This document shows, piece after piece, positions 1,109 through 11,538 of a DNA stretch of 64,000 nt. Origin of the DNA: a virus; IMG/VR virus record IMGVR_UViG_3300046463_000247, positions 1-64,000 of that record. The stretch is one strand, 5' to 3'. A program made the position numbers and the translations under genes. Numbering within the stretch: position 1 is the stretch's first letter; each line of letters starts with the position of its first letter. Below the pieces are notes generated by a model. It was not told where the DNA came from. It ran no database searches and saw nothing but the letters and a program-made list of their open reading frames with translations.

Positions 1109-1305
1109 CAGTTTCCCCCGGCAGTTTCTGCGGACCCGAAACAGCACGGGCCGCAGAGATCGGTCGGGTACACGGTCGGCGTGCACTCGCAGTTCATGCA
1201 CGGCGTGTCCCAGTTCTTGTCGCCGTGCTTCAGATTCGGAATAGGCTTCGCGATGTGCGGCACCGGGGCCATGTTCTTCAGCTTGTTGCCATAAGGGTCG
1301 CTCAT
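1105..1305 (-). CDS. Small cysteine-rich protein, 66 aa
   Basis: The protein carries a compact Cys cluster (CMNCEC, then CGPCC about ten residues later) in its C-terminal half, which suggests one bound zinc ion. No known family is recognised. It starts with an ATGA overlap on the upstream gene and ends with a GTGA overlap on the H-NS-like gene, so all three are probably translated together. An adaptor or small DNA/RNA-binding role is possible but not shown. Confidence 0.7.
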   Translation of the reverse strand: MSDPYGNKLKNMAPVPHIAKPIPNLKHGDKNWDTPCMNCECTPTVYPTDLCGPCCFGSAETAGGNW

Positions 1306-1781
1306 TGCACTACGCTCCGCTTCAGGCTGAACGGCGGCACGTAGCGGCGATAGAAGCTACGGCTGCTCAGGTACGCGTCCATGTCGAATGTGCGCGGGTT
1401 GATGTACTGGGCCAGTTCCGGGTTGGCCGCGATCATGCGCCGCTCCACCGCAGCGAAATCCACGCCCATTTCCAGCGGCATCATCGCCGCGTCGCCGTAT
1501 CGTTGTCCGCCGTACACGGAGAAGAACGAGGACCACTGGCCCATCGCACGGTTGCCCGCCTCGGCCTGCTCGTGGAAGTTGGTCACGCGACCGGTCGGCG
1601 ACAGGCCCTTGTCGAACAGCCGCTTCACCAGCGGGTTGGCCTTCGGCAGGTTATTGATGGTCGGGTTGTACAGGTCGAGGAAGTTCGCGGTCTTCCCGAC
1701 TTTGCGCTGCTCTTCGGTCACGTCTTCCGGGCGGACGCCAAACAGGCGGGCGGCGGTGTCGCGGTGCAGGTCTTGGGTCAT
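1302..1781 (-). CDS. Protein with a family A DNA polymerase fingers-motif fragment
   Basis: This 159-residue protein opens with DLHRDTAARLFG, then VTEEQR, then KTANF. That reproduces the fingers/O-helix region of family A polymerases (D-I-H-x-x-T-A-A ... E-Q-R-x-x-x-K-x-x-N-F). The usual following GxxYG is DLYN here. A motif-A-like stretch (VDFAAVERRMIAA) appears near residue 120, after the O-helix segment rather than before it, and no HDE motif C is present. A complete polymerase lies at the right edge, so this is not simply that gene. The ATG overlaps the upstream TGA (ATGA). It may be a polymerase remnant reused for another job, or a convergent match. Confidence 0.7.
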   Translation of the reverse strand: MTQDLHRDTAARLFGVRPEDVTEEQRKVGKTANFLDLYNPTINNLPKANPLVKRLFDKGLSPTGRVTNFHEQAEAGNRAMGQWSSFFSVYGGQRYGDAAMMPLEMGVDFAAVERRMIAANPELAQYINPRTFDMDAYLSSRSFYRRYVPPFSLKRSVVQ

Positions 1782-2074
1782 AGTGAGGTGTGCAGTCCGG
1801 TTGCTTCGGTAAACAGGGCGGGCAGGTGGTCGCCGTACACGTCGGCGTGAGTGCCCTTCAGCGTCGCGGTGGCCTTGTGGATGCCGTAAAACTCCACGGT
1901 GTACAGGTCGTTGGGCTGAAGCATCACCCGGACCTTGCGGATGCCGTTGGTGCGCGGGATGCTGAACTGGAGCCCGGCGTCCAGCGCCAGGAAGTTTCTG
2001 GCCCCGGTCATTGCTGCGAACCGGCGTCCACCGAACTGCCGGAGAATCGTCTCCGCGCGCTGCTTTTTGTCCAT
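1778..2074 (-). CDS. Conserved phage hypothetical protein, 98 aa
   Basis: The N-terminus (DKKQRAETILRQFGGRRFAAMTGA) resembles a small protein found in many phages of proteobacteria whose function is not known to me. The middle has alternating basic and hydrophobic residues (KVRVML, YTVEFYG), suggesting a small beta-rich fold. AAGGAG lies nine bases before the ATG. It is the first gene behind the promoter at 2120-2148 and heads the left-end operon. Confidence 0.8.
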   Translation of the reverse strand: MDKKQRAETILRQFGGRRFAAMTGARNFLALDAGLQFSIPRTNGIRKVRVMLQPNDLYTVEFYGIHKATATLKGTHADVYGDHLPALFTEATGLHTSL

Positions 2075-2119
2075 GTCGTCGCACTCCTTGCGGTTGACAC
2101 TGGGTTAGTCGATGAAAGT

Positions 2120-2170: not shown

Positions 2171-3529
2171 CTACCCGAACAGGGTAGTCGCCGCGTGGCA
2201 GACGTTGCACAGCGTCACGTTCACCGTCCACGCCTGCCCGTCTACCGGGGACTCATATTGCAGGTGGTAGGCGTGCCGGGTCCGGTGCTCGACCGTCAGC
2301 GCGTCTACCGACACATTGGCAAGGGACGGCTTGTACCACGGGACGGGGTTATTCGAGTAGGCCATAACAGTTTCCCCGGGCGACGCCTCGACGGCGTAGC
2401 TGCACCCGCCGTTTGCACAGAAGCACTTCTGAACGTGCCCCAACCTCTTGAGGAAGTCCTGGTACGGGATGATGTGGCCTGTGTCGTAATGCAGCGTATG
2501 GGGCAGGTTCTTGTCGATCCCGTAGGCATAGAAGCATGTCTGGCAGAGGAACGCGTCCACGGGCTGTCCAAGCGTGGTTCCGGTCACCTTGTAACGCTTA
2601 AGCGACTCTGATTTGGTCAGGTAGACCGAGTACTCGCTATCCACCGTGTACTCGGGCAACGCCCTCCGCAGCGTGACCGGCTTGAACAGGCGGCACTGCT
2701 CGTTGTAGCAGAAGTGGTGCGGGTGCGTGAATGACACCTTCTTGCCAGGCGTGTCCGCCAGCGCCTTCGCGGGCACCGCGCCGGTCAACTCGTGGCTGGT
2801 TTTCAGTGCCGCCAAAAGTTTCTCCTTGTCCACGCTGATCGCGACCTTCAGTTCGCCTTGGAGTTTCGGATCGGGCTGCATGTAGTGCGTCGTGCCGGTC
2901 CCATGCGTCTGGTGCATCGGGGCGACTAGGTGCTTCTCACGACGGACAATCACCAGCCACACCAGGTTGTACTGGTCGTATTCGGCATCGGTCGCGCCTG
3001 CGTCGAGCCACACCTGCACCGTTGGGGGCACTATCAGTGCCTCGTTCACCACCTCTCGCGGGACCCTCAGAAGCGTGTAATGGGCGTTTCCGCTTGGGTT
3101 AGGCCCGGCCAGCATGGTCGTCGTCTCCCTGAACCAGTAGGACAGCCATGCCGCCGTCAGTGCCGTGCGCGGGTCCTCCGAGGTCAGCGAGACGCGTGGC
3201 GACCACCCTACCGTGACCTGATTCAGCGTCGGCGTGGGAGCGAAATACAGCGTGCACTCAGGCGTCTTATCCGCAGGATTCATCCACCATTCGGTCTTCA
3301 GGGCACCGCATTGCTGCCACAGGCTTGCCCAGTCGGTCTCGGTGTAGTGCTGCGCTTTATTCGCGTCGATTAGCCACGACGGGAGTTGCTTGGGCTGAAT
3401 AGACAGGCCGATACGATCCATGTGCGGGATGTACTTGCCGTTGATGTGCGCATGGTGGGCGACGAACAGCGCGAGGTACTGCGCGAACTGGCTGCTTGAA
3501 TTGGTGTTGACCAGCGGTTTTAACGGCAC
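2171..3529 (-). CDS. Cysteine-rich protein of unknown function, 452 aa
   Basis: I do not recognise this gene. The C-terminal half (from about residue 275) carries repeated Cys pairs: CYNEQC, CQTC, CFCANGGC and CNVC. Two zinc-ribbon-like modules are therefore likely. The N-terminal half has no membrane segments or signal peptide and several Trp-rich stretches. A GTG also occurs nine bases upstream, but it overlaps the AAGGAG; the chosen GTG has that AAGGAG eight bases before it. Its own promoter lies at 3565-3592. A 16-bp repeat directly follows the stop codon. It sits just downstream of the ParB/PP-loop cassette and may belong with it. Confidence 0.8.
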   Translation of the reverse strand: MPLKPLVNTNSSSQFAQYLALFVAHHAHINGKYIPHMDRIGLSIQPKQLPSWLIDANKAQHYTETDWASLWQQCGALKTEWWMNPADKTPECTLYFAPTPTLNQVTVGWSPRVSLTSEDPRTALTAAWLSYWFRETTTMLAGPNPSGNAHYTLLRVPREVVNEALIVPPTVQVWLDAGATDAEYDQYNLVWLVIVRREKHLVAPMHQTHGTGTTHYMQPDPKLQGELKVAISVDKEKLLAALKTSHELTGAVPAKALADTPGKKVSFTHPHHFCYNEQCRLFKPVTLRRALPEYTVDSEYSVYLTKSESLKRYKVTGTTLGQPVDAFLCQTCFYAYGIDKNLPHTLHYDTGHIIPYQDFLKRLGHVQKCFCANGGCSYAVEASPGETVMAYSNNPVPWYKPSLANVSVDALTVEHRTRHAYHLQYESPVDGQAWTVNVTLCNVCHAATTLFG

Positions 3530-3564
3530 GAAAGGCACTCCTTGCCCGGTTTATTCACCCGGTC

Positions 3565-3595: not shown

Positions 3596-5161
3596 TTAGC
3601 TGAGGTCCCGGCCCAGATACTTGCCGAATACCTCGCGGGCGCGTACCGCCAGCCCCATGCGCGAACCGTCCTTGTACGGCAGGTCGAATTCGAGGTCAAT
3701 GGCCTCCTTCAGCAGCCGGTCGGGCACGCGGCGCGCGTGACGGCATTCCGCGTAGCAGTTCGCCTCTGCCGCCTTGACTTCGACCTTGGCGAAGAACACG
3801 TCCAGCATCTTCTTCAGTTCCTCTGGCTCGAAGAACTTCTGGGCCTTGAAGAAGCGCGTGTCGTTGCCCAGCGTCACGTTCGGCTCGGCGTTGTTGACGC
3901 GCAGGTGGTTGCCGATCTTGAAGCCCTGAAGCGTCTTGGCGTGCTGGGTGCCGATGAACACGCCCGTCGAGTACCGCGACATCGCCGCGAGGATCGTCAG
4001 GTAGGCCATGCGGTCTTCGTGGTGCGGGATCGAGTTCAGCACGAAGCTGCTGATGATGCTGTCCGGCCCGCTTCCCGCGTCCGCCAGCGCCTCCAGACGG
4101 TCCAGGTAGGCACTGATCAGCGCCCGGCTCGCGTTCGGGTCCACGTCGGTCGTCTCGGGCGGGCTGTAGTACGGCTCGAACGGGGTGCAGTCGAACCCGG
4201 CTTCCCGCATCATCGTCGCGTCGTGCAGCGTGCCCGCGCCCATGTCGAAGATCACCTTGCCGTAGCGCCGCGCGAACGCCGCGCGTGAGTCCTCGTTGTT
4301 GGTCGGCAGCAGCGCAAGGTCGGAATTGACGTTGCCGTCGATCACCTGCTTCGTGTTCATCGTGTTGCTGATGATCCGGCCATAGACGAAGTACGGGTAG
4401 GTGCGCGACAGCCCGTGAATCTGCGCCTGCACCGACTTGCGGCGAAACGCGTTGAAGCGCAGTTCTTCGCGGAAATGGGACTGGATGTCGAAGTCCATCG
4501 CGAGGAAGTTCAGCGCCATGTAGGCGAAGTCCGCCGCCGCTTCGGGCACCTCCACCACGTCGAGCATGTCCACGCCCTTGCCGTAGTAGCCGTGCGCGCG
4601 GCCCGCACCGTTCAGCAGCCGGTTGCCGCAGACCACGAGGGGCATGTAGACCCGCGCGTCCACCAGCGCCCCGCCACCGGCCCTCACGTTCTCCGTCACG
4701 TCAGGACCCGCCATCCCCACGGCCTCCTGTGCCGACATCGTGCGCAGCGCGTCGATGCACGGGTAGTAGGTGTCGGGCTCGATGTCCGGCAGGTTCGCCG
4801 TCAGGTTGGTGGCCTTCTCCAGGTACTCGGTGAACGCCCGCTTCGCGTCGGTCGCGAACGTGTCCATGTCGTTGGTGCCCTTGTTGAAGAGCACGTTCAG
4901 CCCCTTCTCCTGGTCGTCGGGCACGTCGAGTTCGACCACCGGCACCTTCGTGTAGCCCACCATCTTGGCGGCGGTCGTGCGCTGGTGGCCCGACAGGATC
5001 ACGCCGTTCTTGTTGACGAAGATCGGCAGCACGAAGCCAAGCTTGCGCAGCGAGATCGCGACCTGCTGTAGCCGCTCCGGCACCATCTTGCGGGGGTTGT
5101 ACTCCGCGCCGTGGAACGTGCTGATGTCCCGCAGCACGACCGGGTTGCTTGCGTGCTTCAT
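3596..5161 (-). CDS. ParB-fold protein fused to a class I methyltransferase-like domain
   Basis: Residues about 5-90 form a ParB/sulfiredoxin-type N-terminal domain: NPRKMVPERLQQVAISLRKLGF, then ILSGHQRTTAAKMVG. This is the GHxR box that binds nucleotide in ParB-like proteins. Residues about 300-420 look like a class I SAM-dependent methyltransferase, with a glycine motif (FDMGAGTLHDATMMREAGFD) and a motif-IV-like SSFVLNSIPHHEDR. No DPPY motif of DNA adenine methylases is present. The ATG overlaps the TGA of the second ParB-fold gene (ATGA), so the two are co-translated. The family is often linked to DNA or nucleotide modification; the substrate here is unknown. About 521 residues. Confidence 0.8.
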   Translation of the reverse strand: MKHASNPVVLRDISTFHGAEYNPRKMVPERLQQVAISLRKLGFVLPIFVNKNGVILSGHQRTTAAKMVGYTKVPVVELDVPDDQEKGLNVLFNKGTNDMDTFATDAKRAFTEYLEKATNLTANLPDIEPDTYYPCIDALRTMSAQEAVGMAGPDVTENVRAGGGALVDARVYMPLVVCGNRLLNGAGRAHGYYGKGVDMLDVVEVPEAAADFAYMALNFLAMDFDIQSHFREELRFNAFRRKSVQAQIHGLSRTYPYFVYGRIISNTMNTKQVIDGNVNSDLALLPTNNEDSRAAFARRYGKVIFDMGAGTLHDATMMREAGFDCTPFEPYYSPPETTDVDPNASRALISAYLDRLEALADAGSGPDSIISSFVLNSIPHHEDRMAYLTILAAMSRYSTGVFIGTQHAKTLQGFKIGNHLRVNNAEPNVTLGNDTRFFKAQKFFEPEELKKMLDVFFAKVEVKAAEANCYAECRHARRVPDRLLKEAIDLEFDLPYKDGSRMGLAVRAREVFGKYLGRDLS

Positions 5162-5880
5162 TCTGCCGTGCCCCCCGGCTGGGCGACCGGCTGCTGCGCG
5201 TTTGCAATTGATTGCAGCGACTCGGCAGACGGCCCGCCGATGGTCGAGACGGTGAAGCCCAGACGGCGTGCGATTTCGTTCACCAGGTCGGCGCGGCGCG
5301 GAAAGTCCTTCAGCAGGCTTGCTTCCCACTGCTTGTAGTCGTTCACGTGCACCTTGAACTTGTACAGGCCGATGTTCAGCACGATATGCTCGCGGCTGAT
5401 GACCTGCTTATTGCTCGCCACCGATCCGCACACCGCCTCGTAGCTGAGGTCCTTCAGGCAGTCCGCGTCAATCTGGCCGCACAGGCAGTCCAGTTCTTCC
5501 TTGCTGAAGCCGGTCGATTCGAGGTCGAAGCCCAGTTCGCCCAGCAGCCGCAGTTCTTCCGACAGCTTCGATTCGTCCCACTTCGCGTTCTCCGACACGC
5601 GGTTATCGGCGAGGCGGAACGCCTTGATCTGCGCGTCGCTCAGGTGGTCCGCCGTGATGGTAGCGACTTCCGTCAGACCCAGTTCCGTGCTGGCGCGGTA
5701 GCGCGTGTGGCCGGTGACGATCACGCCGTCCTTGTCCACCACAATCGGCACGAGGAAGCCGAAGTCCTCAATTGACTTCTTCACGCCCGCCACGGCTTCG
5801 TCGTTCACGCGCGGGTTGTTCCAGTACGGCTTGACCTCGCCCAGCGCGCGATAGACGATTGCGATCTTGTTCTGTTCCAT
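5158..5880 (-). CDS. ParB-like nuclease-domain protein, 240 aa
   Basis: The first 110 residues follow the ParB N-terminal pattern: NNPRVNDEAVAGVKKSIEDF, VDKDGVIVTGHTRYRAST (GHTR box), then a helix pair DAQIKAFRLADNRVSE. This matches the stand-alone ParB-like proteins of phages rather than chromosomal ParB. I see no clear ParB central helix-turn-helix, and there is no ParA in the window. The C-terminal tail contains a 16-bp repeat in frame (LQSIA, near residue 223) followed by a low-complexity end. It has a good AAGGGG ribosome binding site and lies 15 bases after the PP-loop gene. Confidence 0.85.
   Translation of the reverse strand: MEQNKIAIVYRALGEVKPYWNNPRVNDEAVAGVKKSIEDFGFLVPIVVDKDGVIVTGHTRYRASTELGLTEVATITADHLSDAQIKAFRLADNRVSENAKWDESKLSEELRLLGELGFDLESTGFSKEELDCLCGQIDADCLKDLSYEAVCGSVASNKQVISREHIVLNIGLYKFKVHVNDYKQWEASLLKDFPRRADLVNEIARRLGFTVSTIGGPSAESLQSIANAQQPVAQPGGTAE
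5202..5217 (+). repeat. 16-bp dispersed repeat, copy 3
   Basis: TTGCAATTGATTGCAG; in the C-terminal tail of the ParB-like gene (LQSIA). Confidence 0.95.
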
Positions 5881-5895
5881 GCGTTACCCCTTGAG

Positions 5896-7092
5896 TTATT
5901 CGAGCCCGGCCATCGTGGCGCGGATGTTGTCGTCCTGCAAAATCGGGTTCTCCAGGCGAATCTTGCCGATGCCCGCGCCCGTGTAGAAGCCCACCTTCTT
6001 CGCCTTGTCATGCCAGCTTCCGCCCGACACGTAGCGGTCGAGCAGCGCATAGTACAGCGGCTTGCTGGTCTCGACCGGCGTCACTTCCAGACTCAGGCCC
6101 AGCAGGAATTCGAGCACGTCGCGGTTCACGAACAGGTCGGTCGTGCGCAGCGGCTGGAACACCTTGTAGACCATCAGGTTGTTCGGCAGCGTGTATAGCT
6201 GGTGATCAATCCGGTACTTCGACCACTTCTGCGAGGTCGGGTAGTCCTCGGCCTTCAGGAACTTGCCGGTCGTCATGATGTCGTTGCCCAGCACCACGTC
6301 GGCGAGGTCGGCGGCAGCGATCCACTCGGCCCCGATGCCCTCGGCGAAGCGCGCGACCACGCGGTTGCACATGCCCATCAGCACGTTGCTGTAGTCCGTC
6401 ATTTCAATATGGGCCAGCGTCTCGGCCAGCAGCGATTGCAGGCCCTCGTCGTCGCCCGGGAGCGGCAGGAAGTGGTACTCCAGACCCAGTTGCTCGGCGT
6501 ACTTGCGCGCGTAGCTGGGATCGAAGTCTTCCTCGGTGCGGCCCACGCAGACGCACACCTGGTCGATGCCCGCGTGCTTGAGCGCCAGCGCGGTTAGCAG
6601 ACCGTCGGTGCCGCCGCTGATGGTCGTGACGACCTTCTTGCCGCGCAGGAACTCGGCAGCGCCCACCAGCCGTTTCAGAAGCTCCGATGCGGCCTCGTCC
6701 ATCGGCATCTTCCAGTTCGGTTCGGGCTTGATGATGTCGAGCACGTAGCGGCGCAGGCCCTTGGCCGACAGGTGGTAGCCGACGCCTTCCTTGCAGCGCA
6801 CGATGTCCTTGATCTTGAAGCCGTTCGCCTGGACGAATGCCTTGATCGACGTGTAGGACTGGGAGAAGTGTAGTTCGCCTTCCCGGTGCACGTAGTACAG
6901 CGGGATCATGCCGGGGGCGGACTGGTACAGGTAGCAGGCGCGCGGCCCGCCGTATGCCTTGAAGGCGACGCCGCCAATCGGGGCGATCAGGCCCGCGCCG
7001 AAGTTGCGTTGCTCGCGGATCGCGGAGTCGTGCTCTTCGTAGTGGAAGGACTGCGGGTCAGAAACCGACCACGACTGAACGGTTTTTAGCAT
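5896..7092 (-). CDS. Asparagine-synthase-like PP-loop ATP pyrophosphatase
   Basis: At about residue 145 there is a PP-loop, TISGGTDGLLTALALKHAG, the SGGxD motif by which this superfamily adenylates a carboxyl or amide. The N-terminal 110 residues echo the second half of a glutamine amidotransferase domain (ELHFSQSYTSIKAF), but no catalytic Cys2 is present, so free ammonia or another amine donor would be needed. At 398 residues it is shorter than asparagine synthetase (about 550). It shares an operon with two ParB-fold genes, a context compatible with hypermodification of a base or small molecule. The promoter and a 16-bp repeat lie directly upstream. Confidence 0.82.
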   Translation of the reverse strand: MLKTVQSWSVSDPQSFHYEEHDSAIREQRNFGAGLIAPIGGVAFKAYGGPRACYLYQSAPGMIPLYYVHREGELHFSQSYTSIKAFVQANGFKIKDIVRCKEGVGYHLSAKGLRRYVLDIIKPEPNWKMPMDEAASELLKRLVGAAEFLRGKKVVTTISGGTDGLLTALALKHAGIDQVCVCVGRTEEDFDPSYARKYAEQLGLEYHFLPLPGDDEGLQSLLAETLAHIEMTDYSNVLMGMCNRVVARFAEGIGAEWIAAADLADVVLGNDIMTTGKFLKAEDYPTSQKWSKYRIDHQLYTLPNNLMVYKVFQPLRTTDLFVNRDVLEFLLGLSLEVTPVETSKPLYYALLDRYVSGGSWHDKAKKVGFYTGAGIGKIRLENPILQDDNIRATMAGLE

Positions 7093-7122
7093 GTCTGGCT
7101 TCGTAAAGTGTAAAGGTGCCGA

Positions 7123-7151
7123 AGTGTAGCGCCTTCACTTCGCGAAGCCAA
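7123..7151 (-). promoter_or_regulatory. Promoter candidate for the PP-loop/ParB operon, inside a large inverted repeat
   Basis: TTGGCT (7146-7151), 17 bases, then TACACT (7123-7128), read leftward. The -10 context TACACTTCGG equals that of the promoter at 52919-52947. Arms at 7096-7110 and 7136-7150 form a 15-bp inverted repeat (13 of 15 pairs) around the -10 box. A 16-bp repeat starts five bases upstream of the -35 box. Confidence 0.6.
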
Positions 7152-7155
7152 CTTT

Positions 7156-7171
7156 TTGCAATTGATTGCAG
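7156..7171 (+). repeat. 16-bp dispersed repeat, copy 4
   Basis: TTGCAATTGATTGCAG; intergenic, five bases upstream of a -35 box. Confidence 0.95.
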
Positions 7172-7175
7172 CGGG

Positions 7176-8048
7176 TTAGCTCCAGTACATCTTGCCGCCC
7201 GTGGCGCTCGGGTGAAACTTGGGGAAGTCTACGCCCACCTCGTGCAGATTAGCGCCAGCCGCGAGCGCGGCAGGGTACTCCTTCTGCCAGTAGTACTCTC
7301 CCATGTGCGTGACCCGGTTGCCCCCGCCCTCACCTTCCCCGTTGGGCACCCATTCCAGCCATACGCGGCGCGGCTTCGGGCAGACCTCGATGCAGAACAC
7401 GTTGCTCTTTTTCCACATCATCAGCAGGTCCACGTCGCAGTTCAGCATGATCCAGCGCGCGAAATCCTCCTTGCTCACCTCACCGTCCTCGACGCAGAAC
7501 GGCAGGATGTCCACGCGCGCACAGGGCTGGTTGCCGAAGGTGCCCCGGTCCCACTGGTGCGGGTCATGGCTGGTGGACTTCTTCGCGGGTGGATACCCGG
7601 CCTCGATCAGCGCGCGGCTCTGGTAACCGTAGGTGATCGCGAAGCGCCCGAACTGCGCCAGCACCGGCTCCAGCACGCGCTCGCAGATGGCCCGGCCACC
7701 GGCAATCGCCAGTTCGAGGTTGTCGCTCGGGAAGTTCGGAATGCCCAGCGCATCAGCGCGGTTCGAATACAGGAAGTCCCGCAGGATGAAGTTCTTGGAC
7801 AGGCGGGTGCGGCTCTGTTGCTCGCGCATGGCGATCAGGGCGTGGCTGTCCTTGCTGATTTGATACGGCATGCTCGCCTTTATGGTCGGTTGGTCCCCGC
7901 ACACCTGGTCGATGTGCTTGCAGCGTTTGTGCGCCTTGACGAAGCGTGGGCACGTGCAGGTCTTGCGGACGGGATCGACATGATAGATCACGGAAGGGTT
8001 GCTCTCGCTTTGCACCTCAACGAGCCCTTCAAACAGCGATCCCTGCAT
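7176..8048 (-). CDS. SWIM zinc finger fused to an M15 peptidase-like domain
   Basis: Residues about 25-50 contain CTCPRFVKAHKRCKH, the CxC...CxH pattern of a SWIM zinc finger, normally a DNA- or protein-binding module. From about residue 75, NFILRDFLYSNRADALGIPN and the later VLEPVLAQFGRFAITYGYQS closely follow the start of M15-like (Hedgehog/DD-peptidase fold) phage domains. The expected later His-x-x-x-Asp metal site is not clear, although HDPHQWDRG and ARVDILPF could supply it. It precedes the PP-loop gene, with a GAGGG ribosome binding site and its own promoter. A role with the ParB/PP-loop genes is inferred from position only. Confidence 0.72.
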   Translation of the reverse strand: MQGSLFEGLVEVQSESNPSVIYHVDPVRKTCTCPRFVKAHKRCKHIDQVCGDQPTIKASMPYQISKDSHALIAMREQQSRTRLSKNFILRDFLYSNRADALGIPNFPSDNLELAIAGGRAICERVLEPVLAQFGRFAITYGYQSRALIEAGYPPAKKSTSHDPHQWDRGTFGNQPCARVDILPFCVEDGEVSKEDFARWIMLNCDVDLLMMWKKSNVFCIEVCPKPRRVWLEWVPNGEGEGGGNRVTHMGEYYWQKEYPAALAAGANLHEVGVDFPKFHPSATGGKMYWS

Positions 8049-8201: not shown

Positions 8202-9407
8202 TCAGATTTTGACCGTCTGTCCAGTCACTTCCAGCCGTGCCTTCAGCAGGTAGCCCGGCAGTATCTGGGTCGAGCACAGTTGCAGCCACTCACCGACGAC
8301 TTCGGCCTGATGGCTCTCGTCCACGTTCTCCAGCATCGGCGCGAAGCGTAACACCCGCACGGCCTGCGCAATGATGCGGGACGGCCCGTAGGCGACCTGT
8401 GCGGTGAACCAGTCCGTCTCCAGCACGCGGATCGCCTGGCCGATCAGGAACGCGCGTGTCGCGGGCATGGTGACGCCGTGGTGGGCGAGGAACTTCTGGG
8501 CCGCACCCGCTTCCGCCTCAATGCGCCGGGCGACCATCTGGCCTTCCGCGATGCCCGGGTTGTACGCGTAGTCCGGCACTCCGGCCACGATATTCAGTTC
8601 CGGGGGCGAGTACGGACCCAGCGCGTCGCCAGGACCCAGCACGTCCGGCATGTGCACGCGGTCCATCGTCAGCAGGCTCGTCACTGACAGGCTCGGGTCG
8701 TCCTGAAGCAGCTTGACCAGCCCGTCGCAGCGCAGCAGCGCCACGGCCTTGGCCCGCACCACCGAACTCTGCACGGCGGCAGCGCTCGCGTCCACGCCGA
8801 TCTCGTCAAAGTGGCCCAGCAGGAAGTTGCCTGCGGCCATGCGCGCGGTCAGTTCCCGGATCAGGGGCATCAGGCCGGGTCCACTGAAGACGTTCGTCCT
8901 GAAGCTGGCCCGGTAGGTGTCGAGCACTTCTTCCGCCGTCATGCAGGCGAACGAGTTAATCAGCCCTTCGACGTGCGGCAGGCCCCGCGTGAACAGTTCT
9001 TCGAGGTCCGCGCCCAGGCGGCTCGGCGTATGCGCGCACAGGCAGGCGATCACGTAGCTCACGTAGCCGCGCAACTCGTCCAAGCTCTCATGGGTCTCGC
9101 GCAGCATGCACACGGCGTCGCGCGCCACCTGCTCGGCGGGGAGCGCGTAGTGCTGGGTGATGTAGCGCACCAGCGTCGGCACCAGCATGGCCGTGTAGCC
9201 GCCGTTGACGAGACCCTGGGCGTACTTGGTGGCCGTGTTCAGGTCCAGTCGTCGCAGCGAACAGATCACCGCCTGTACCGCCTTGGGCACGCTCGACGGA
9301 TTCTTCACGATGATGCTGTGCTGAACGTACGCGCCGGACTGGTGGAACCACGCGTCCTGATGTTCTTCAGAGAACGGCGGTGCGTCCATCGCTGCAACCG
9401 TAGACAT
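8202..9407 (-). CDS. Hypothetical protein, 401 aa
   Basis: Not recognised. It is a soluble, mostly alpha-helical sequence with no membrane segments or known catalytic motif; scattered Cys residues do not form a zinc cluster. The start codon overlaps the upstream stop as TAATG with GGAGG six bases before it, so it is co-translated with the 9407-9997 gene. A strong terminator follows. The pair forms its own transcription unit between the structured-RNA region and the SWIM/M15-like cassette. Confidence 0.82.
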   Translation of the reverse strand: MSTVAAMDAPPFSEEHQDAWFHQSGAYVQHSIIVKNPSSVPKAVQAVICSLRRLDLNTATKYAQGLVNGGYTAMLVPTLVRYITQHYALPAEQVARDAVCMLRETHESLDELRGYVSYVIACLCAHTPSRLGADLEELFTRGLPHVEGLINSFACMTAEEVLDTYRASFRTNVFSGPGLMPLIRELTARMAAGNFLLGHFDEIGVDASAAAVQSSVVRAKAVALLRCDGLVKLLQDDPSLSVTSLLTMDRVHMPDVLGPGDALGPYSPPELNIVAGVPDYAYNPGIAEGQMVARRIEAEAGAAQKFLAHHGVTMPATRAFLIGQAIRVLETDWFTAQVAYGPSRIIAQAVRVLRFAPMLENVDESHQAEVVGEWLQLCSTQILPGYLLKARLEVTGQTVKI

Positions 9408-9997
9408 TACGACCTCCAGAGCGGTTCGTACTTGGGGACTTCACGTTCGGTGATGCGCGGGCGGATCAGTGCGTTATACGGGCCTTCCAGGCGCGCGTAG
9501 CCGGTTTCTGGATCAAACGCATGCACCCTGTACGCGTCGCTCGTGTGCTTGTGCACGAGGTACAGTTCCCGCTGGTCGCCGCTCTTGGCGAAGGCGCTCA
9601 GGGCGTCGAGGATGGTTTCGACTTTTTCGCCGCTGGTTTCGACTTGGCCTTCGATTTGGGCTTGGACTTTCGGGCTGCTGGCTTCGACGGGGACGCCGAC
9701 TTTTTCGCTGCTGGCCTGCGTCCCCGGCTGCTGTGGGGAGCCACCATCGTCCTTGCCCAGACCAGCGGCGAGCGCGAAGGCTTCTTCCTTGGTCAGGCTC
9801 GGTGCGGCCAGTGCATCGCTGACCCCGGTGCCCGGGATGTCCTGCGAGGGTAGCTCGGCCTGCACAGGAGCCGCGCTGACGGGCTCGGGTGTGCTGGCAG
9901 GTGCCTTGGGCTCGGTGGGCTGCTCGGGAGCGGCTGCGGGCGGTGTGGCGGTTGCCGGGGCGGTCTCACCCTCGGGCCGGTGAATTTTTAATGCCAT
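9407..9997 (-). CDS. Proline/alanine-rich hypothetical protein, 196 aa
   Basis: The first 115 residues are low-complexity Pro/Ala/Glu/Thr (ATATPPAAAPEQPTEPKAPA), probably disordered. The last 80 residues look folded (QRELYLVHKHTSDAYRVHAF). The start MALKIHRPEG resembles the N-termini of RecA, the 19678 gene and others here (MALK/MGLK/MGIK). AGGAG lies eight bases before the ATG. No function is assigned. Confidence 0.78.
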   Translation of the reverse strand: MALKIHRPEGETAPATATPPAAAPEQPTEPKAPASTPEPVSAAPVQAELPSQDIPGTGVSDALAAPSLTKEEAFALAAGLGKDDGGSPQQPGTQASSEKVGVPVEASSPKVQAQIEGQVETSGEKVETILDALSAFAKSGDQRELYLVHKHTSDAYRVHAFDPETGYARLEGPYNALIRPRITEREVPKYEPLWRS

Positions 9998-10038
9998 TCT
10001 TCTCACTCCTTGAGAGGCGGATCGTCCGCATAGCACTT

Positions 10039-10734: not shown

Positions 10735-11538
10735 TTACTTTACTGCCTGCTTCACTTCGATGTCCCACTCGGGGAACAGTTCGGCGATCTTCGTCAGGGC
10801 CGCTTCGAAGCCGAGCGTCTTGACCTGCTCTTCGAACGGGACTTCCGTGCCGCCCGTTGCGCCGCCGATCACGCCTGCGAGGTAACCCGCGCAGATGTTT
10901 TCGAGCGCCACGCTGTCAAATTCGGTGCCGGTCTCGGCCTTGGCCTTCGAGAGCGCCGACTTGATCGTGTTCGCCTGGTCGTTCTTCACAGCGAACTTCA
11001 GGCTCACGTTGTCGCTCGTGGTGGACGACGAGGTTTCGCCCGCTTCACCCGTGACCGTGCCCTTCAGCAGCTTCTGGAGTTCCACGACCGTCAGGCCCTC
11101 AGCCTTGGCGACCATTTCGTCCAGGTTCTCCAGCGTCAGGTGTTCGGCGAGGTCCTTGAGCTTGGTCCAGCCGAGGTGGCTGACCTTCTCCCACGGAATC
11201 TGCTTCACAATCAGGTGATCGTAGATGTCAATCAGGTAGCGCGCCTTGCGCGACTTGAAGCCAAACTTCTCTTCGACATACGCGTCGAACGATTCGAAGC
11301 CTTCGAACCACGAGTTGTCCTGGATCAGCTTGAGCACACCGCCCAGCCGCAGGTACGACACTTCGATGGTCTCGTTCAGCTTCTCAGCCTCGCCGAGAGC
11401 CTTGGGCTTCGACATGGACTGGATTTCGGCGGCAGTGTCAAAGAACAGATCGCCGGTCGCGGTCTTGCCCTTGGATTTGGCCTTGCCGACCACGACGGTC
11501 TCGGGCTTCTGTTCTTGCACTTGCTCTGCTGCGCTCAT
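10735..11538 (-). CDS. Hypothetical DNA-associated protein, 267 aa
   Basis: Residues about 55-115 read as a helical segment with a YxRLGGVLKLIQDNSWFEG start and FDAYVEEKFGFKSRKARYL. This kind of segment occurs in phage and plasmid proteins annotated as regulator-like or DUF3102-type; the match is from memory and weak. The N-terminus is Lys/Gln-rich and the C-terminus hydrophobic-acidic. The ATG has AAGGA twelve bases upstream. The gene sits alone between promoter 11605-11633 and the structured-RNA candidate, which is probably transcribed as its 3' extension. Confidence 0.72.
   Translation of the reverse strand: MSAAEQVQEQKPETVVVGKAKSKGKTATGDLFFDTAAEIQSMSKPKALGEAEKLNETIEVSYLRLGGVLKLIQDNSWFEGFESFDAYVEEKFGFKSRKARYLIDIYDHLIVKQIPWEKVSHLGWTKLKDLAEHLTLENLDEMVAKAEGLTVVELQKLLKGTVTGEAGETSSSTTSDNVSLKFAVKNDQANTIKSALSKAKAETGTEFDSVALENICAGYLAGVIGGATGGTEVPFEEQVKTLGFEAALTKIAELFPEWDIEVKQAVK

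Follow-up and report, generated by a model that had tools for sequence, protein, structure and literature searches.

Four linked genes at positions 3596–8048 of a virus record, IMGVR_UViG_3300046463_000247, form what is very probably a DNA-modification cassette, judging from comparison with related loci, and we propose that they encode a post-replicative hypermodification system in which a carboxymethyl group, and in this lineage an amide, would be built onto a base of the phage DNA. The window, the whole stretch of DNA analysed here, comprises positions 1–64000 of this 98,045-bp record. As a sequence-only reading of the window had claimed, the four linked open reading frames (ORFs) are all present; all lie on the minus strand and, in order of transcription, they are:

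7176–8048, minus strand: SWIM zinc finger and M15-like domain protein, 290 amino acids, presumed accessory (PF04434, 20.8 bits; phrog_894, E 3e-5)
5896–7092, minus strand: asparagine-synthetase-like PP-loop protein, 398 amino acids, without the Cys nucleophile, a predicted amide ligase acting on a carboxymethyl base (AF2 fold; PF00733 in homologues)
5158–5880, minus strand: stand-alone ParB-N protein, 240 amino acids (PF02195, 31.5 bits; phrog_620, E 2.8e-53)
3596–5161, minus strand: ParB-ParB-methyltransferase fusion, 521 amino acids, a predicted DNA carboxymethyltransferase dependent on carboxy-S-adenosylmethionine (carboxy-SAM, Cx-SAM) (phrog_5475, PF02195, weak PF13489, hhalign, AF2)

The model for this reading is Synechococcus phage S-B43, in which CmoA, CmoX (a C5-methyltransferase) and CmoY were proven in December 2025 to act together, giving 5-carboxymethyl-C and its glycine amide (5-glycylcarboxymethylcytosine), with an estimated 75% of GC sites modified; ParBc genes often lie near such CmoA–CmoX–CmoY loci (PMC12783734). 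What we have observed are the genes of our record with their homologies, modelled folds, an order that is conserved and their occurrence together; from these we infer every chemical step, including the base, the atom and the amine. A CmoA-like enzyme, encoded outside the window at record positions 88691–89371 on the minus strand, would make carboxy-SAM from SAM; the fusion would transfer the carboxymethyl group from carboxy-SAM to a base of the phage DNA, with the stand-alone ParB probably serving as its DNA-binding partner; and in this lineage the PP-loop protein would adenylate the new carboxylate and join it to ammonia or an amine, leaving a base that bears an amide and ought to keep host nucleases from acting. 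We consider this mechanism as a whole reasonably probable. The earlier suggestion of a hypermodification locus in which an amine or amino acid is attached to a base is partly supported: a locus that builds an amide on a base has become the best-supported reading, drawing its model from PMC12783734 and its comparative support from the CmoA-like gene and from the association with the terminase.

The grouping of the four genes is not a matter of chance, since they keep their order in two related contigs, L004 (identities of 63% for the ParB-methyltransferase, 54% for ParB, 42% for the PP-loop protein and 51% for the SWIM/M15 protein) and L005 (53%, 50%, 34% and 45%, respectively), and they do so in a third, L130, as well. 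We corrected the start of the fusion to the ATG at 5161, from the GTG at 5329: this ATG and the ParB stop share a four-base overlap (ATGA), as in translationally coupled genes, and the program-listed 577-amino-acid ORF of the fusion begins upstream, inside the ParB gene.

Both ParB proteins score above the Pfam cut-off for PF02195 (ParB_N; 26.3 bits), at 26.7 and, for the stand-alone ParB, 31.5 bits. The count of two ParB-fold proteins given by the sequence-only reading therefore holds for proteins but not for folds, of which the pair has three, two of them in the fusion: a second ParB-like fold at residues ~128–226 aligns in hhalign with the fusion's own first ParB domain (97%) and with the stand-alone ParB family (96%). 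The SAM-methyltransferase-like domain was likewise borne out by phrog_5475, which matches residues 65–573 of the 577-residue ORF with an E-value of 6.5e-77; its Pfam match (PF13489, 23.2 bits) is below the cut-off. Searches of Pfam, PHROG and NCBIfam did not by themselves settle the methyltransferase and PP-loop assignments, and we therefore predicted folds. The AF2 model of the fusion (predicted local distance difference test score, pLDDT, 89.3; predicted template modelling score, pTM, 0.84) matches solved ParB/Noc structures in its first part and adopts a class I methyltransferase fold at residues ~228–478, and the DxGxG cofactor motif, EP, NSxP, DR and KxQK are nearly or fully invariant when 149 homologues are compared. 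The invariant residues R235, R241, R384, K439 and K442 are candidate ligands for the Cx-SAM carboxylate. A PDB sequence search with the fusion returned only ParB and weak UbiG matches, and a profile comparison gave no significant similarity between its methyltransferase domain and CmoA (17%). A subclass call by fold comparison was dropped: the best match, METTL6 (Z 13.0), is tied with GNMT and others at Z 13.0 to 10.7.

The case for this protein as the transferase comes in part from the enzymes that are missing around it. Six records were searched with Pfam: this one, the L004 and L005 contigs (the first, and possibly the second, could be incomplete) and phages HJ05, SM1 and Evaa. None of them contains a match to C5-methyltransferase (PF00145), N4/N6-methyltransferase (PF01555) or CmoB (PF08003), which leaves the ParB-methyltransferase as the candidate. 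A C5-like ORF at record positions 96461–97126 (L027:15461–16126, minus strand) was considered as the missing CmoX and rejected, being absent from the other six of seven records tested and having a family match that continues past an in-frame TGA; it is truncated, with a phrog_757 match and an FPPC motif. Nor is a thymidine route favoured: HJ05 and the L130 contig have a thymidylate synthase, but none was found in this record, in SM1 or in Evaa. A search of a literature library for DNA modification in Samunavirus phages gave no report.

What decides the case is a gene beyond the window. In this record the CmoA-like gene lies ~12 kb downstream of the cassette across the record ends, which have 60 bp in common, just after the terminase genes, and its product carries an N-terminal extension of roughly 300 residues. 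At related loci (L004 and phages SM1, Evaa and HJ05) a second methyltransferase adjoins the terminase, with TIGR00740 (CmoA) as its best family (E 1e-18 to 1e-35); the best solved structures for the CmoA-like protein are E. coli and Haemophilus CmoA, and CmoA models were matched by all 22 of the CmoA-like proteins sampled. A profile search with the fusion found 224 relatives in IMG/VR, 80 of which were fetched, and 75 loci in GTDB genomes, among them Verrucomicrobia, Clostridia, Bacteroidota, Chloroflexi, Alpha- and Gammaproteobacteria and Desulfovibrionaceae; several of the loci are located in long bacterial contigs. Viral contigs and genomes together supply 114 loci with at least 3 kb downstream, and in 110 of them a CmoA-like gene is no more than 5 kb from the fusion; of the four exceptions, the contig L048 has the same sequence as this record across the cassette and does encode CmoA, at a greater distance. 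ParB stands directly upstream of the fusion in 126 of the 132 loci with room upstream. Control ParB loci had CmoA in 0 of 19 cases, and a CmoA match of any kind occurs in 79 of 50,697 phage records. The CmoA partners fall into subfamilies either 46–71% or only 21–24% identical to this record's protein, and on the ParB-methyltransferase tree the CmoA type (scored by one residue) changes 13 times against 26.7 expected if shuffled. As two very different CmoA subfamilies replace one another beside the same fusion, the pattern suggests that it is the activity, rather than the lineage, that has been kept.

Other genes accompany some of these loci. Among the non-redundant loci and related phages that were clustered, 10 encode a phosphatase-like protein of roughly 150 amino acids (phrog_32036, annotated phosphatase in Evaa; for example L065:12061–12513 and L030:2633–3115) close to the genes for CmoA and the ParB-methyltransferase. 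In or near the L005 cassette are a radical SAM protein (PF04055, E 8.6e-15) and a small Cys-rich protein (L005:3294–4079 and L005:6092–6610), possibly responsible for extra tailoring steps, and in L004 a GNAT-like acetyltransferase (weak FR47; L004:6330–6809), which perhaps caps the new group, is inserted between the SWIM/M15 and PP-loop genes.

The position of the cassette, which leads into the terminase, bears on what its target might be. The nearest annotated phages by terminase are Stenotrophomonas DLP3/DLP5 and Vibrio siphophages, and flanking genes (exonuclease, RuvC, 10735–11538) are common to this record and Vibrio phage PG28. In place of the cassette, DLP5 and PG28 (L207, L208) carry a glycosyltransferase, a PIG-L deacetylase and ParB before the terminase, which may constitute another DNA modification; DLP3 DNA resisted 15 of 15 restriction enzymes tested and was inferred to be modified (PMC7326821). 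Were the cassette instead to modify RNA during infection, by a cmo5U-like or METTL6-like tRNA modification, the normal service of CmoA to tRNA and the top rank of METTL6, a tRNA m3C enzyme, among the (many, tied) fold matches would be readily understood; the three DNA-linked ParB folds, the place before the terminase, the glycosyltransferase cassettes in the same slot of sister phages and the lack of a CmoB match in the six records make this improbable. The same slot raises the thought that the ParB genes serve plasmid-like prophage partition or DNA packaging amid unrelated accessory genes, and DLP5, a relative by terminase, is indeed a phage-plasmid with ParB proteins (PMC7326821). Partition would be expected to leave a trace of ParA (PF13614), yet the six records yielded no Pfam match, which argues against it, while the control search found ParA in all 14 genomes; moreover, ParB is tied to the methyltransferase fusion and CmoA in phages of many phyla. 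We regard this explanation as very improbable.

The step that would complete the hypermodification is assigned to the PP-loop protein. Its own PP-loop Pfam match (12.6 bits) falls below the cut-off; PF00733 (Asn_synthase) is above the cut-off in homologues from HJ05 (25.9 bits) and Paracoccus (28.8 bits). The AF2 model, built on five sequences with a pLDDT of 78.4, matches asparagine synthetase B at Z 26.9 with 367 residues aligned over 2–398 (AF2/VIA); AsnB, beta-lactam synthetase and carbapenam synthetase all align over this range at Z 23–27, the next class reaching 12.7, and the model has the architecture of that superfamily, an N-terminal Ntn-type domain followed by a PP-loop domain. The Cys2 nucleophile of glutamine-dependent members is absent near the start of this protein (MLKTV) and of every aligned homologue, so that the earlier description of a PP-loop enzyme without the amidotransferase Cys is confirmed. 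Besides this clade, HJ05, L052, L130 and Paracoccus sp. MKU1 have the gene; in Paracoccus, PP-loop, M15-like, ParB, fusion, CmoA and terminase genes stand in one row. We put the amide step at slightly better than even.

The SWIM/M15 gene occurs almost only together with the PP-loop gene. Of its two proposed parts, the SWIM zinc finger stands above its cut-off (20.8 against 19.6 bits), whereas the M15-like part rests on the weak phrog_894 match. The protein has conserved SPHxWDRxTFG..RxDILP and SNVxCI motifs, and, of the His/Asp/His zinc site of M15 peptidases, the His and Asp motifs are conserved, whereas the alignment seems to place a Cys where the third ligand would be. A protein encoded next to the PaBG ligase and annotated as a peptidase was tried as a relative and is not homologous.

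Several observations weigh against the proposed chemistry. Neither the C5 PPC motif nor the amino-methyltransferase DPPY motif was seen in the fusion alignment and the nearest solved folds are tied, so the target of the modelled methyltransferase domain cannot be read off; the PP-loop motif in this record is SGGTDG, against the usual SGGxDS; an amide ligase is undetected in most loci that have the ParB, fusion and CmoA triad; and all support for the cassette is comparative, with activity and modified base predicted. CmoA-like scores, 69.8 bits in this record and 66–121 in other phages, are under the curated TIGR00740 cut-off of 193.3 bits. The position aligned to E. coli CmoA Arg199, the residue that binds the Cx-SAM carboxylate, is Arg in 76 sequences; another 48, this clade among them, have Glu there and an Arg immediately ahead of a conserved Pro. 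The proven Cx-SAM synthase of S-B43, SpCmoA, has Glu and Lys at those aligned places, so that the Glu appears neither to argue against carboxy-SAM nor to prove it.

The sub-threshold scores and the lack of an R199 equivalent in this clade lend some credence to a plainer account, in which the fusion is an ordinary ParB-targeted SAM-dependent DNA methyltransferase and the CmoA-like protein a second methyltransferase, with carboxy-SAM uninvolved; ParB-N is, after all, often fused to ordinary phage DNA methyltransferases, as in phrog_498. This account is unlikely, however: every member listed has CmoA as its best family, the E. coli KR-SLE motif is retained by many partners (76 sequences with R199), there is no obvious need to keep a second plain methyltransferase in 110 of 114 loci, and in the proven system CmoA goes together with AsnB-like amide ligases. 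Sequence comparison points to carboxy-SAM as the probable donor, and the fusion is likely a carboxymethyltransferase of a class that PMC12783734 did not describe; the survey in that paper started from CmoX, and it names no candidate N6 or N4 carboxymethyltransferases. More tentatively, and at somewhat less than even expectation, the fusion would be the first of a second class of DNA carboxymethyltransferases that depend on carboxy-SAM, one that evolved independently, acting on a non-C5 atom (a ring or exocyclic nitrogen) and producing a new base widespread in phages and prophages of many phyla.

Around the cassette, PHROGs searches gave no informative match for the neighbours at 2171–3538, 8202–9407 and 9407–10036. 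A 260-amino-acid ORF at window positions 1302–2084 (minus strand) has DNA polymerase A homology over a single stretch of about 42 residues, and this polymerase gene may be split or frameshifted. Elsewhere in the record, a 48-bp direct repeat (97.9% identical) occupies positions 83422–83469 and 86497–86544.

If the carboxymethylation model is true, carboxy-SAM DNA chemistry would extend beyond the C5-methyltransferase type of 2025 to a second, very widespread enzyme class, and phage proteins near the terminase that are annotated only as ParB-like or hypothetical would be accounted for; the carboxylate would offer a handle on a possibly new base, and the transferase a DNA-tagging enzyme. The model is cheap to check: E. 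coli makes carboxy-SAM, and the genes are present in three isolated phages, Pseudomonas SM1, Aeromonas HJ05 and Gordonia Evaa.

By analogy, the cassette most likely operates as in S-B43 but through another transferase, and because of that difference we do not file it as a member of the S-B43 system. The two have in common a CmoA homologue, an AsnB-type ATP-dependent ligase, a frequent ParBc neighbour and a phage genome. S-B43 and PaBG carry CmoA, the asparagine-synthase-like ligase and a C5-methyltransferase together, and in Staphylococcus phage F1 a C5-methyltransferase accompanies CmoA and a homologous protein that has no annotation; our record, by contrast, lacks a C5-type CmoX (with its SPPC motif and Cx-SAM-binding Arg), the transferase candidate being the ParB-ParB-class I methyltransferase. 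Its ligase keeps a shortened N-terminal domain where S-B43 CmoY has none, and the cassette, whose chemistry is here predicted from genes, precedes the terminase and adds a SWIM/M15-like protein. As in the E. coli CmoA–CmoB pathway to tRNA cmo5U, a CmoA relative could supply Cx-SAM to a partner with a class I methyltransferase fold, but here there is no PF08003 match and the partner is fused to ParB domains, in phages. The phrog_498-type fusions also place ParB-N ahead of a methyltransferase, although only the ParB part matches, our protein having a pair of ParB folds and a methyltransferase of another class. Beta-lactam and carbapenam synthetases, too, are amide formers without glutaminase activity and share the predicted fold over its full length; the predicted substrate here is instead a carboxymethylated DNA base plus an external amine, and the PP-loop motif of this record is SGGTDG. 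The cassettes of Delepquintavirus (DLP3/DLP5) and the Vibrio siphophages, finally, occupy the same slot before the terminase and include ParB, with a glycosyltransferase and a PIG-L deacetylase replacing the CmoA, ParB-methyltransferase and PP-loop proteins.

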